Below, one piece after another: positions 25,288 to 30,284 of a DNA stretch of 64,000 nucleotides (its first letter is position 1; each line of letters opens with the position of its first letter). Position numbers and translations under genes: made by a program. Where the stretch lies: positions 62,001-126,000 of the forward strand of contig NZ_BLXZ01000011.1 in NCBI RefSeq assembly GCF_014193675.1. The letters run 5' to 3'. This DNA is from Geomonas limicola. GTDB lineage: Bacteria; Desulfobacterota; Desulfuromonadia; Geobacterales; Geobacteraceae. The notes beneath the pieces are model-generated. The model made no database searches, was not told where the DNA came from, and worked only from the letters and a program-made list of their open reading frames with translations.

Positions 25288-26961
25288 TCACCCCATGAGC
25301 TCCCGGGCGACCTGCACCCCCTCGGCGGCTGCCGCGTCCCCCGGTGCCAGCTCGAGAGCCTGGTCAAACCAGTCGAGCGCCTCGTCCGGTTTGCCCAGTT
25401 CCAGCGCAAGTTCCCCCAAGGCCAAAAACGCCGGGAGGTGGCGCGGCACCAGCTTGAGCACCTTCAGGTACCCCTGCCGCGCCGCCTTGAACTCCCCGAG
25501 TCTCCCCTGCAGACCCGCCTCGAGCAACGCCCCCCACGGGTTCTTCGGTTCCCGCCGCACCATCTCACGATACAGCGCCAGCGCCCCCGCAAAATCCTCA
25601 CCCTCTTCGAGGCTCTCCGCAGCGAGCATCTCGGTGACAAACGAGTACCCGACCAGCTCGCGCTGCTTCTGGAAATCGCGCCGGGAGTAGCGGGCCTTGG
25701 CACCGGCCTGTTCGAGAGATTTCAGGATGCCGCGCCGCGAGCGTTCCACGAAGGGGTCGCTCCGCACCAGAAACCCCTCCCCCGACGCTTTCTCGAAGAG
25801 CCGCTCGGAGACAGCCCCCTTGCGCACCGCCTGACTGAACAGCTGGGTCCCCGGGTAGTAGACCAGAGGCGACACCTGGCCATCCTGGGGTTTGATCCGC
25901 TCGATGAGGCGCTGGGTCGCCTTCAGGTCCTCTTCGCTTTCGCCGGGGATGCCGGTAATCAGGTAGATGGAGAGGTTGAGCCCGACGCGGCGCACCGCGG
26001 CCGCGGCCTGCTCCACGGCATCCGGGGTGATCCGCTTGCCCAGAGCCTTCAACATGGTGGGCGACCCTGACTCCACGCCGAACTGGATGCACTCGCACCC
26101 GGCGCGCTTCATGGCCGCCAGCATCTCCTGGTCCACCGCAGTGACCCGGGATTGGCAGTTCCAGAGCATGCCGAGCTGCGCCTCTTCCAAAAGCCGGCAG
26201 ATCTCCAGCACCCGCTCCCGGTCCGCCGTAAAGGTGTCGTCGCGCAGCGAGAAGTAGACCAGGCCGAAGCGCTCGCGCAACAGGCGCAGCTCCTCGACTA
26301 CCGAGGCCGGGGAGCGGAAGCGGACCCCGCGCCCCCAGAAAAGCGGCGAGGAACAGAACAGACAACTGGCCGGGCAGCCGCGCGAGGTGATGATGAACTC
26401 GAGCTGGCGCCGGTAATCGACCCCGATGCCGTGGCTCTCGGCGGCCGCGGCAAGCGGCAGGGCATCGAGATCGGCGATGGGGGGGCGCGCCTGGGTACGC
26501 AGGACCGTGCCGTTCCCGCGGTAGAGCAGTCCCGCCACCTCCGAGAGCTTGCGTCCGGCGGCTAAGGCCCGCAGGAGTTCCAGAAGGGTTTCCTCACCCT
26601 CCCCCAGCACAACCGCATCGACCTCGGGGTGCTGGGCCAGTTGTTCTTCCCCTGCGTGGGTCGCGTGCGGACCTCCCAGAAGCACCAGGCAGCGCGGGTC
26701 GAGCTCCTTGGCCACCCGGGCAAGCTCCAGCGAGTCGAAACGGTTGTGGGTGAACTGGGAGATCCCCAGCACCGCGGGACGCTCTTCCTTGAGGATCCGG
26801 CGCACCTCCTTCCACGGGTATCCCGAGAAGTTGGCCAGGGTGACGCGGTGCCCCTCTTTGCGCAGCACCGCGTCCAGGCTCAAAAGCCCCACCGGCAAGA
26901 GCGAAGTGAAGGGATCCTGCGCCCCTTCGGGATGGCATCTATAGGAAAGTACGACCTTCAT
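25288..26961 (-). CDS. B12-binding radical SAM protein with C-terminal TPRs
   Basis: The N-terminus (residues 1-140) is a cobalamin-binding-like Rossmann domain (PAVLGISQFTHN, VLLGGPHATHAGEE, VVLGEGEETLLELL). The radical SAM core follows, with the cluster motif RGCPASCLFC, then RDDTFTADRERVLEICRLL and the ITGIPGESEEDL segment. The last 120 residues are tetratricopeptide repeats (WGALLEAGLQGRLGEF, PAFLALGELALELGKPDEAL), which usually bind proteins. I place the start at MKVVLSY, with CGAGGA upstream. It is a single gene between two terminators. The substrate is unknown; HpnJ, at 47933-49351, has the same domain order without TPRs. Confidence 0.85.
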   Translation of the reverse strand: MKVVLSYRCHPEGAQDPFTSLLPVGLLSLDAVLRKEGHRVTLANFSGYPWKEVRRILKEERPAVLGISQFTHNRFDSLELARVAKELDPRCLVLLGGPHATHAGEEQLAQHPEVDAVVLGEGEETLLELLRALAAGRKLSEVAGLLYRGNGTVLRTQARPPIADLDALPLAAAAESHGIGVDYRRQLEFIITSRGCPASCLFCSSPLFWGRGVRFRSPASVVEELRLLRERFGLVYFSLRDDTFTADRERVLEICRLLEEAQLGMLWNCQSRVTAVDQEMLAAMKRAGCECIQFGVESGSPTMLKALGKRITPDAVEQAAAAVRRVGLNLSIYLITGIPGESEEDLKATQRLIERIKPQDGQVSPLVYYPGTQLFSQAVRKGAVSERLFEKASGEGFLVRSDPFVERSRRGILKSLEQAGAKARYSRRDFQKQRELVGYSFVTEMLAAESLEEGEDFAGALALYREMVRREPKNPWGALLEAGLQGRLGEFKAARQGYLKVLKLVPRHLPAFLALGELALELGKPDEALDWFDQALELAPGDAAAAEGVQVARELMG

Positions 26962-27016
26962 GGAGTTCCTCGTGAAAACCGCCTCCATCTTAGCCCGAAA
27001 GCCGGGCAGTGGACAA

Positions 27017-27068: not shown

Positions 27069-28100
27069 CTAGTTGCTGTTCAGCCCCAGGGCGTCGTTCG
27101 ACATGGTATCTTCCGCGCTCTCCTCCTCGACACCGAGCATCAGGTCGTCGAGCTTGAAGACGTCCGGGTTCACCTTGGCGATGCGCTTGGCGCCCAGGTA
27201 CCGGGAGCGGTAGTAGGAGGTGTTCATGGGGGAGATGACCACCCTGCGGTCCCGGGAGGAGGCATGGATCATCTTGCCGTTCCCCAGGTAGATCCCGACG
27301 TGCGAGGCGTAGGAGGCGTAGGTGCTGAAGAAGATCAGGTCGCCCCTCTGCAGGTCGCCCGGCGCCACCGAGGTCCCCACCTCGAACTGTTCGCGCGCCG
27401 TGCGCGGCAGGGAGACTTCCAGTTCGCGGAACACCTTCTGCACGAATCCGGAGCAATCGATGCCACCGGATTTCGAGCTGCCACCGAAGCGGTAGCGGGT
27501 GCCCAGGAAGCCGTAGGCAGATTTCTTGAGTTCCTTCAGGCCGTCCACCTTGAGCTCGGTGTTCTTGCGCAGGTCCACCTGGCGCTCGGGCTCGTTCTCG
27601 GTCAGCTCCATGAGGCTCTGCTCGTAGTCCTTCTCGTTGAACAGGTCCCCGTGGCGCAGCTGCAGCTTGCGCACCGCGGCCACCCGGGGACGGGCCTCCT
27701 CGGCGGCGGGGGCGCTTTCACGCAGCACCAGCACTTTCCCCTTCTTCACCCTGCTGCTGGCGAGACCGTTCAACCGCTTCAGGTCGGCAACGGAGACCCC
27801 GGTTTTCTGGGAGATGCGGGAAAGGGTTTCGCTCTTTTTGACCTTGTACACGGCGGCAGAGGCTGCGCCGCCTGCGGAAGGAACGGTACGGGGAGGAATG
27901 ACCAGAACCTGTTTCGGCTTGATGTTGTCGCTCACCAGGTTATTGGCGGACTTCAACTCCTCTGCCGTGACGTGGTATTTCTTGGCCAGGGTATAGACGG
28001 TTTCGTTCTTTTTGACGCGATGGGTTTTCGCTGCGAAGGCCAAGGAAGGGAGGGCAAGGATAATAAGGCTGAAGGCTATTAGCTTGAGGCTACGTATCAT
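27069..28100 (-). CDS. Exported LysM-NlpC/P60 peptidoglycan hydrolase
   Basis: A signal peptide ends near residue 23 (SLAFAA). Two LysM domains for peptidoglycan binding follow (residues about 25-70, KTHRVKKNETVYTLAKKYHV, and about 84-128, VYKVKKSETLSRISQKTGVS). The catalytic NlpC/P60 domain covers about 195-310: the cysteine lies in GGIDCSGFV and the histidine in ASHVGIYLGNGKMIH. Such enzymes cut peptide stems in the cell wall. AGGAGG precedes the ATG and a near-consensus promoter lies 44 bases upstream. It follows the c-di-AMP cyclase gene, a messenger tied to wall homeostasis elsewhere; the link here is inferred. Confidence 0.93.
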   Translation of the reverse strand: MIRSLKLIAFSLIILALPSLAFAAKTHRVKKNETVYTLAKKYHVTAEELKSANNLVSDNIKPKQVLVIPPRTVPSAGGAASAAVYKVKKSETLSRISQKTGVSVADLKRLNGLASSRVKKGKVLVLRESAPAAEEARPRVAAVRKLQLRHGDLFNEKDYEQSLMELTENEPERQVDLRKNTELKVDGLKELKKSAYGFLGTRYRFGGSSKSGGIDCSGFVQKVFRELEVSLPRTAREQFEVGTSVAPGDLQRGDLIFFSTYASYASHVGIYLGNGKMIHASSRDRRVVISPMNTSYYRSRYLGAKRIAKVNPDVFKLDDLMLGVEEESAEDTMSNDALGLNSN

Positions 28101-28236: not shown

Positions 28237-29409
28237 CTAGCGATTTTTTGGAGTGCCGTCCTTGCTGTTCTTGCGTTCCGCGGTCACCCTGACCTGGGTC
28301 CGTTCGATGCTGTCCACCATGATCCCCGGGGGGAGTTTGATGTCGTCCTTGCGGATGGTCACCGTGTTGCCCCCCTCCTTCACCTTGGCGAGATCGAGGT
28401 CGACCACCACGTTCAGGTCACGCGGGGAGCGCACCAGGTTCGAGTAGGCCTTGAGCTGCAGATCCACCTCTTCCGGGTAACTGCGCGCCAGGACCAGGCT
28501 GTCCGGGAGGTTGTGGAACTTGATCGGGGCGGTGACGGTGAGAATTTCTCCCTGGCGGTAGGTGATCAAGAGCCAGCTGATCAACACCACGGTCAACACC
28601 CCCAGCTTGGGCCAGAAGTTGCTGAACAGGCGGGTCTTCCAGGTGATCCGTTGCGCCTGGGCCGACTGGGGGAGCAAACGCGAACTCAGGCACTCGTGCA
28701 GGTCGGCGGCGCTGGCCACCCGCTCCAGGCGCCCGTCCACCGAGATGGAGACTTCGCCACGCTCCTCCGAAACGATGACCACCAGTGCGTCGGAGCGCTC
28801 GGTGAGCCCCAGCCCGGCGCGGTGCCGTGTACCGAAGTGCTGCGGGACATCGGCGCTGACCGAGAGCGGGAGGTGGCAGGAGGCCAGCGCCAGCCGGCCT
28901 TCGCGGATCAGCGCTGCCCCGTCGTGCAGGGGCGAACTCGGCAAGAAGATACTGGTGATAAGCTGTCCGCTCACCAGGCTTTCCAGGGGGACGCCGTGCA
29001 GGATGTAGTCGTCGAGCTGTTCCTCGCGCTGGAACACCAAAAGGGCGCCGATCTTTCTCGCCGCGAGACCGAAGACCGCTCCCGAGACCTCCATGAAGTC
29101 GACGCGCTGCCCCACTTCCTGGCGGTCGAACAGCTTGCGCAACAGGCTCAGGCGGTAGAGTGCCTGGCGGATCTCAGCCTGGAACACCACGATCAGGAGG
29201 ACCAGCAGCACCGTCCCGAGTTCCTGAAGGATCCAGCTGGTCATGAAGAGCCCCAGGTTCTTGGTGACCACGTAGATCACCCCGAGAAAGAGCAGGCCCA
29301 GAACGACCTGAAGGGCCCTGGTGTTCTTGAACCAGCAGTAGAGCTGGTACACCAGAAAGGTCATGATCAGGATGTCGGCGATGTCCTGGGGCCGGAAGTG
29401 CGGCAGCAC
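28237..29409 (-). CDS. CdaA-type diadenylate cyclase fused to a YbbR domain
   Basis: The enzyme should join two ATP to cyclic di-AMP at the membrane. Three hydrophobic segments (residues about 10-80) precede the DAC domain (about 85-245), which keeps both signature motifs, PLHDGAAL and FGTRHRAG. After a further membrane segment (WPKLGVLTVVLISWLLITY), residues about 290-375 form a YbbR domain (PVTAPIKFHNLPDSL-like and RSPRDLNVVVDLDLAKVKEG). In Firmicutes these are separate neighbouring genes, cdaA and cdaR; here they are one chain of 390 residues. The start codon is GTG after AGGAGG. No glmM follows it. Confidence 0.9.
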   Translation of the reverse strand: MLPHFRPQDIADILIMTFLVYQLYCWFKNTRALQVVLGLLFLGVIYVVTKNLGLFMTSWILQELGTVLLVLLIVVFQAEIRQALYRLSLLRKLFDRQEVGQRVDFMEVSGAVFGLAARKIGALLVFQREEQLDDYILHGVPLESLVSGQLITSIFLPSSPLHDGAALIREGRLALASCHLPLSVSADVPQHFGTRHRAGLGLTERSDALVVIVSEERGEVSISVDGRLERVASAADLHECLSSRLLPQSAQAQRITWKTRLFSNFWPKLGVLTVVLISWLLITYRQGEILTVTAPIKFHNLPDSLVLARSYPEEVDLQLKAYSNLVRSPRDLNVVVDLDLAKVKEGGNTVTIRKDDIKLPPGIMVDSIERTQVRVTAERKNSKDGTPKNR

Positions 29410-29576
29410 AGCTTCCTCCTTAGCGTGGTCGGGGGCGGTCTTGAAACGGGACCGGTGGTGTTTTTACTGGCAAGCGGCACCGCTTTGTGTTAATAAGCAA
29501 TGCTTCCCTCCGGCAGCGCCGGGGCAAAAAGCGGTGAAATTTTATAGCATTTCAGGCTTCAAAAAGGTAGGGAAAT

Positions 29577-30284
29577 ATGTACAAACTGTCTGAAAAAGGT
29601 GAACGTATACGCGACATGTTCGGCAGCATCGCGCCGCGCTACGACCTTTTGAACCGTGTGCTTTCGCTGGGAATCGACCAGCGCTGGCGCCGCTTTGCGG
29701 TAGCCAAGATCGGCGTGTCCGGCTCCGGGCGCGTACTCGACGTGGCCACCGGCACCGGTGATGTCGCCCTTGAAATCGCGAACCAGACCCCGGCGGCGGT
29801 GCAGATCGTCGGCGTCGATTTCTGCAAGGAGATGGTGGACCTGGGGGTGGTCAAGGTTGCCGAGTCACGCCATGCCGGCCGCATCAGTTTCCAGGTTGCC
29901 CCCTGCGAGGATATCCCTTTTGAAGATCAGACCTTCGATGCCGCCACCATAGCCTTCGGGATCAGGAACGTGGTGGACCGGGTGAAGGGACTCGGCGAGA
30001 TGCACCGTGTCTTGAAGGGCGGGGCCAAGGTGGTGATCCTCGAGTTCTCCACGCCGACCCTGCCGGTATTCAAACAGCTCTACCACTTCTACTTCCTGAA
30101 GGTGCTGCCGCGCATCGGCGGCGCCTTCTCCCGCTTCAGCGCCTACCAGTACCTTCCCGACTCCGTTTTGGAGTTCCCGTCCCGCGACGTCTTCAAGGGG
30201 ATGATGACCCAGGTCGGCTTCAAGGACGTGAAACACTACGACCTGACCGGCGGCATCGCCACGGTCTACGTCGGGACCAAGTAA
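29577..30284 (+). CDS. ubiE: Demethylmenaquinone/ubiquinone C-methyltransferase
   Basis: UbiE/MenG methylates demethylmenaquinone with SAM in the last step of menaquinone synthesis. The 235-residue protein has SAM motif I (VLDVATGTGDVALE), the family block FGSIAPRYDLLNRVLSLGIDQRWRR and the signature ITIAFGIRNV-type sequence ATIAFGIRNVVD. The ATG follows GGTAGGGA. It is divergent from the diadenylate cyclase gene and ends in its own terminator. In a Geobacter-type anaerobe menaquinone is the expected substrate. Confidence 0.95.
   Translation: MYKLSEKGERIRDMFGSIAPRYDLLNRVLSLGIDQRWRRFAVAKIGVSGSGRVLDVATGTGDVALEIANQTPAAVQIVGVDFCKEMVDLGVVKVAESRHAGRISFQVAPCEDIPFEDQTFDAATIAFGIRNVVDRVKGLGEMHRVLKGGAKVVILEFSTPTLPVFKQLYHFYFLKVLPRIGGAFSRFSAYQYLPDSVLEFPSRDVFKGMMTQVGFKDVKHYDLTGGIATVYVGTK

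Follow-up and report, generated by a model that had tools for sequence, protein, structure and literature searches.

The window, a 64,000-nucleotide stretch of the Geomonas limicola genome, carries a gene in which a CdaA-type diadenylate cyclase and a YbbR domain lie in one open reading frame. The gene, its parts and its neighbours are as follows.

25288-26988, minus strand: neighbouring gene for a B12-binding radical SAM protein with TPR repeats (Pfam)
27069-28100, minus strand: next gene downstream, a peptidoglycan hydrolase with two LysM domains and an NlpC/P60 domain (Pfam)
28237-29409, minus strand: fused CdaA-YbbR diadenylate cyclase, 390 amino acids (open reading frame with Pfam and NCBIfam matches)
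28282-28527, minus strand: single YbbR domain, residues 295-376, predicted to be periplasmic (PF07949)
28561-28617, minus strand: fourth membrane helix, residues 265-283 (hydropathy)
28729-29079, minus strand: DAC catalytic domain, residues 111-227 (PF02457, E 2.9e-37)
28819-28827, minus strand: RHR active-site motif, residues 195-197 (alignment)
28915-28923, minus strand: DGA active-site motif, residues 163-165 (alignment)
29170-29400, minus strand: CdaA_N membrane region, residues 4-80 (PF19293, E 2.2e-9)
29415-29421, minus strand: Shine-Dalgarno-like AAGGAGG, 5 bases 5' of the start codon (sequence reading)
29577-30284, plus strand: divergent upstream ubiE methyltransferase gene (Pfam)

As read from the sequence, the open reading frame has exactly the boundaries 28237-29409 and starts with GTG. 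The original prediction, that a CdaA cyclase and YbbR form one chain, is borne out by the profile matches, with all domains above their Pfam cut-offs. CdaA_N, placed N-terminal to DAC, scored 37.8 bits (cut-off 23.8), and YbbR, which had been expected in residues 290-375, was found at 295-376 with 27.5 bits (cut-off 22.3; E 4.1e-6). The NCBIfam equivalog model for CdaA, TIGR00159, matched with 212.5 bits (cut-off 188.8), and the closest solved structure is a diadenylate cyclase (9g69 chain C; E 2e-44 over residues 10-259). DGA, GTRHR and SEE are all intact in the alignment and the GxRHRxA motif lies around residues 193-198, so both catalytic motifs foreseen for the DAC domain are there (DGA and GxRHRxA as defined in PMC7288161). 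These matches point to a CdaA-type cyclase with a DAC domain predicted to be active. Since cyclase and YbbR share one frame, YbbR is not a separate CdaA-binding protein at this locus.

The membrane topology had been described as three N-terminal helices, the DAC domain, a further helix and YbbR. A hydropathy scan placed helices at residues 32-50, 58-76 and 265-283; an extra peak at residue 108 falls within DAC. The helix ahead of YbbR was therefore found as described, and its W279 is invariant across 74 aligned fused proteins. Two of the three N-terminal helices were likewise recovered by hydropathy, whereas the first fell below threshold and is suggested by the CdaA_N match and by a low-confidence structure model. 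That model, computed from seven close sequences, predicts helices at 7-28, 30-52, 55-75 and 257-285 with a mean pLDDT of 40.2, and so lends weak support to the layout. A scan for promoters and terminators gave numbers close to those of shuffled sequences.

Other cyclases and GlmM in the same genome

The window's genome (5.23 Mb, 17 contigs) contains three DAC matches. The best is a 259-amino acid CdaA (locus L005, 8821-9600) in the gene order tilS-ftsH-folP-cdaA-ybbR-glmM-pdxJ, which is 39% identical to the fused protein over 220 residues. Its ybbR-like neighbour overlaps cdaA by four bases and encodes 129 amino acids, which align with the fused chain's YbbR half at E 6e-5 (30% over 84 residues). 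This small protein scores 15.4 bits against the Pfam cut-off of 22.3, which is why a YbbR scan of the genome returned only the window copy. The third protein (locus L006, 6529-7899, minus strand) combines a DACNV sensor domain with a weak DAC match (27.8 bits, cut-off 27); it carries DGA and GTRHRA and matches neither CdaA_N nor YbbR. Since another locus of this genome is an ordinary ftsH-folP-cdaA-ybbR-glmM operon, the window fusion is a paralogue of the operonic CdaA, that is, a second cyclase.

This operon bears on two further claims. The predicted absence of glmM holds at the window locus and fails genome-wide, since glmM sits in the operonic cdaA-ybbR-glmM; its loss from the genome is thereby ruled out. 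The claim that a fixed 1:1 fusion abolishes regulation by dissociation is an inference; oligomerisation can still set activity. A dissociable YbbR partner may, moreover, still act on another cyclase in the same cell, because the operonic cdaA has its own 129-amino acid YbbR-like gene.

Residues at the contact between CdaA and GlmM were compared in alignments. In Bacillus subtilis, R126 of CdaA binds D151, E154 and D195 of GlmM (PMC8573169). The place of R126 is occupied by R118 in the window protein (reading of alignments that included 7ojs and 7ojr), and in the genome's own GlmM the residues aligned with D151, E154 and D195 are R, D and E. The same R, D, E pattern has been described for Escherichia coli GlmM, where the arginine was suggested to possibly hinder the complex (PMC8573169). 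These residues are compatible with the presence of GlmM control over either cyclase and equally with its absence. Loss of the contact arginine was considered as a trait of the fused family and rejected, since the site is K or R in 50 of the 74 fused proteins and in 29 of the 34 separate ones.

The genome also encodes a PgpH-type phosphodiesterase domain, which might break down c-di-AMP, and TrkA_C domains, which are possible c-di-AMP targets. A genome search for the c-di-AMP riboswitch RF00379 found none, while the control genomes of B. subtilis and C. glutamicum gave matches; at the gathering score no Rfam family matched in the window, L005 or L006.

Distribution, ancestry and variation of the fused family

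Among named relatives, the nearest are members of Geomonas, with G. silvestris at 94% and a further five species at 70-71%; NCBI places them in the Geobacteraceae, Thermodesulfobacteriota. In a similarity scan of 141 genomes of the window's order, 140 had a match to the fused protein, and in 132 the match was nearly full-length with an E-value no higher than 1e-100; two of the latter contain one in-frame stop, leaving a full-length, stop-free fusion in 130 of 141. Such recurrence makes it very unlikely that a frameshift or assembly artefact joined the two halves. The nine order genomes without the fusion comprise one with no match, two with two-piece matches, one with a partial match and five with weaker matches only. 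Both the two-piece matches (G440:C5 and G403:C218) and the single in-frame TAG codons (G498:C390 and G517:C17) may be sequencing errors or decay.

Across a sample of the phylum, scanned with at most four candidates scored per genome, 347 of 395 genomes had a match. The full-length, stop-free fusion was present in at least 91 of the 395, counted among the matches listed, and in 60 of these 91 it was the only match to the query among those listed. Carriage in viral contigs was rejected: 213 stretches there fit a pattern, and none was confirmed.

We compared 148 loci with one DAC reading frame each: the regions of listed matches, the window, L005 and six loci from Geomonas. The regions followed the match lists rather than a random draw and extended 4-6 kb to each side, less at contig ends. 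Classification was by length: 114 reading frames of at least 370 amino acids were called fused and 34 shorter ones separate. At E 0.01, the first 74 fused frames matched DAC in 74 cases and YbbR and CdaA_N in 66 each; eight frames lack a YbbR match, and for these the fused label comes solely from length and a full-length query match.

The two classes differ sharply in context. Within the regions fetched, none of the 114 fused loci had GlmM, FolP or PdxJ nearby (a looser threshold added a TilS-like frame near L075 and an FtsH-like frame near L074), whereas GlmM and FolP each accompanied 31 of the 34 separate loci and at least one of them accompanied all 34. We also examined the surroundings of glmM in ten genomes that have only the fused form, and found no CdaA in the region in any of them. 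In seven, FtsH, FolP and GlmM stand together with a FolP-GlmM spacing of at most about 190 bases, too little to accommodate cdaA-ybbR; in the other three, GlmM stands without FtsH and FolP. The seven are runs of ftsH-folP-glmM without cdaA-ybbR, the fused cyclase lying elsewhere in the genome (L220-L224, L226 and L229). That fused-only genomes have glmM without an adjoining cdaA is an argument for the fused enzyme being sufficient by itself; the arrangement is compatible with loss of cdaA-ybbR there or with gain elsewhere.

A tree of 104 rows was built from the CdaA_N-DAC region by a quick method, with no bootstrap and an unknown root; the near copies L009-L012 and 40 loci fetched later were excluded. 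The 70 fused and 34 separate rows fall on opposite sides of one branch (length 0.65, SH-aLRT 100), and the fused or separate state changes once on the tree, a count that 0 of 500 shuffles matched. With midpoint rooting, the fused row L061 stands beside the separate group (support 86), and either group could be the older. Judged by this split, the fused proteins are an old subfamily apart from operonic CdaA. On the strength of the tree we reject the idea that the operon's cdaA and ybbR were joined recently.

These results weigh on the account that the protein is an ordinary CdaA with YbbR merely joined to it, acting like the separate CdaA/CdaR pair, so that the second copy is redundant. The order of its parts is that of the operon, where cdaA and ybbR already overlap, it retains the GlmM-contact arginine as R118, and certain streptococcal strains carry fusions for which PMC10243994, where they are described, states no consequence. 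Set against this are the depth of the fused subfamily on the tree, the absence of glmM from the fetched surroundings of every one of the 114 fused loci, and the usual retention of a second match in the order (two or more in 133 of 141 genomes, some of which may be fragments). We consider this account rather unlikely.

A cell-wall hydrolase downstream of the fused gene, as originally predicted, is confirmed by its LysM and NlpC/P60 matches and is conserved among the order loci examined. In all 29 order loci examined, seven of which are Geomonas or the window itself, a LysM-NlpC/P60 gene comes next on the same strand, at a gap of at most 338 bases and in one case with a 14-base overlap. Divergent ubiE lies upstream in 29 of 29 as well (1124 bases away in L205). 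The B12-binding radical SAM/TPR neighbour occurs in 25 of the 29, in one of them weakly. Outside the order, the LysM-NlpC neighbour was found at 0 of 85 fused loci, so the link to the cell wall may be local. At 24 of those 85 loci, a small-protein family on the same strand directly precedes the fused gene, and in one more it lies one gene further; one member that was checked (L083, 7155-7703, minus strand) is DUF2914.

The constancy of the hydrolase gene within the order (29 of 29), together with the description of CdaR function as unknown in PMC10243994, could suit a protein in which YbbR serves chiefly as an anchor or scaffold that recruits the neighbouring hydrolase, with c-di-AMP made constitutively. 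The fused form spreads well beyond the one order to which that neighbour is confined, and we regard a scaffold role of this kind as improbable.

The family varies in its catalytic motif. DGA is present in 113 of the 114 fused frames and RHR in 91; in the other 23, RHT, RHA, RHQ or RHS replaces RHR, so not all fused members need be active, and those without the third R may differ in activity. A side branch has GLRHT or GTRHA/S for GTRHR, mostly with DPHSxGHDGA. Its DAC frames include L111, L116, L119-L122, L124-L127 and L129, and RHQ occurs elsewhere, in L059. In four genomes (G074, G075, G131 and G385) a fused protein without this residue is the only match among those listed. That the window DAC is itself no longer active, the protein being a remnant or a c-di-AMP binder, is very improbable: the second cyclase could make it dispensable and RHR is no longer complete at its third position in the side branch, but the window protein keeps DGA, GTRHR and SEE intact, exceeds the CdaA equivalog cut-off and belongs to a form that is the only match in 60 of the 91 genomes counted for the phylum among the matches listed.

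The C-terminal part varies too. The tail after the last helix has about 107 residues in the window protein and about 185-200 in many fused proteins, including the order members L050-L055, and several fused proteins have two YbbR stretches by Pfam. Two carry an added C-terminal domain, LysM in L101 (5926-7578, plus strand) and OmpA in L116 (4425-6152, minus strand); both are of peptidoglycan-binding kinds and stand at the predicted periplasmic end. Each of these tails rests on one genome, the LysM genome (G077) having 8% contamination. No second copy of the LysM or OmpA tail was found in three and five genomes of the respective families, and BLAST with the two tails returned no third case among the 114 fused frames.

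Proposed function and relation to known systems

Our preferred reading, which we consider probable, is that the window protein is a membrane-bound CdaA-type cyclase with its own periplasmic YbbR regulator, sensing the envelope and standing apart from glmM, and that the window's order has retained it as a second cyclase. The three N-terminal helices would hold DAC at the cytoplasmic face and the fourth would carry YbbR across to the periplasm, where its most likely role is to sense the condition of the envelope or of peptidoglycan. Through the helix bundle, YbbR would then set the frequency of head-to-head encounters between two DAC domains, and hence raise or lower c-di-AMP synthesis; being covalently held on the fourth helix, it could shift the DAC pairing equilibrium directly. 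We infer the enzyme activity, the membrane side, sensing by YbbR and its signal, and the hydrolase link.

CdaA needs two DAC domains head to head, CdaR contacts it via its membrane part, and CdaR has been reported both as activator and as repressor, the mode of regulation being called unclear (all PMC8573169). In the Gram-negative Porphyromonas gingivalis, deletion of cdaR raised c-di-AMP about 2.6-fold, that is, CdaR lowers c-di-AMP (PMC9259658). The YbbR part of CdaR faces outward (PMC10243994, PMC8316131), and by analogy that of the fused protein probably does so too. That it senses the cell wall is a guess, prompted by the adjacent hydrolase gene and by the extra LysM and OmpA domains of two members. 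More tentatively still, the fused proteins might form a distinct family in which sensor and cyclase make up a single transmembrane chain. Such proteins would use YbbR to monitor the periplasm or peptidoglycan, would give c-di-AMP as output without GlmM and would have replaced operonic CdaA in many genomes of the phylum; we offer this as a possibility rather than an expectation.

A natural fusion fixes partner and stoichiometry and here sits apart from glmM. Because of this, and because it is the sole CdaA-type match in 60 of the 91 genomes counted among the matches listed, YbbR could be removed or swapped by altering a single gene, with c-di-AMP as the readout. For the c-di-AMP field, the finding also adds a group of Gram-negative bacteria in which two CdaA-type cyclases exist in parallel.

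A fusion of CdaA and CdaR as such is already known, from some streptococcal strains (A5LQF8, E1M7C3 and V8IIN0; PMC10243994), and the premise that the two are separate proteins in Firmicutes is thus too strong as a rule. For relatives of Geobacter, our search of open-licence papers returned no description of the fusion, and the family described here is one for which we found no paper in that literature. Of the original interpretation, the fusion, the order of its parts and the conserved hydrolase neighbour stand, whereas the strong form of the glmM absence does not, the Firmicutes rule goes too far and the dissociation argument is tentative.

The window protein shares with the CdaA (DacA)/CdaR/GlmM system of Firmicutes the CdaA_N helices, a DAC domain with DGA and RHR, a helix followed by YbbR, and the order of these parts; it differs in being one chain and in not lying beside glmM. 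It has one YbbR domain, where CdaR of lactic acid bacteria has three or four (PMC10243994). Within its own genome, the operonic CdaA is likewise CdaA-type but is followed by a separate 129-amino acid YbbR-like gene and glmM, and the DACNV-DAC protein shares a weak DAC but differs by its DACNV domain and matches neither CdaA_N nor YbbR. The streptococcal fusions, compared by their description in PMC10243994, likewise unite cyclase and YbbR regulator in one protein; they are described there from some strains, whereas the fusion reported here recurs in 130 of the 141 order genomes and, among the 395 sampled from the phylum, in at least 91.
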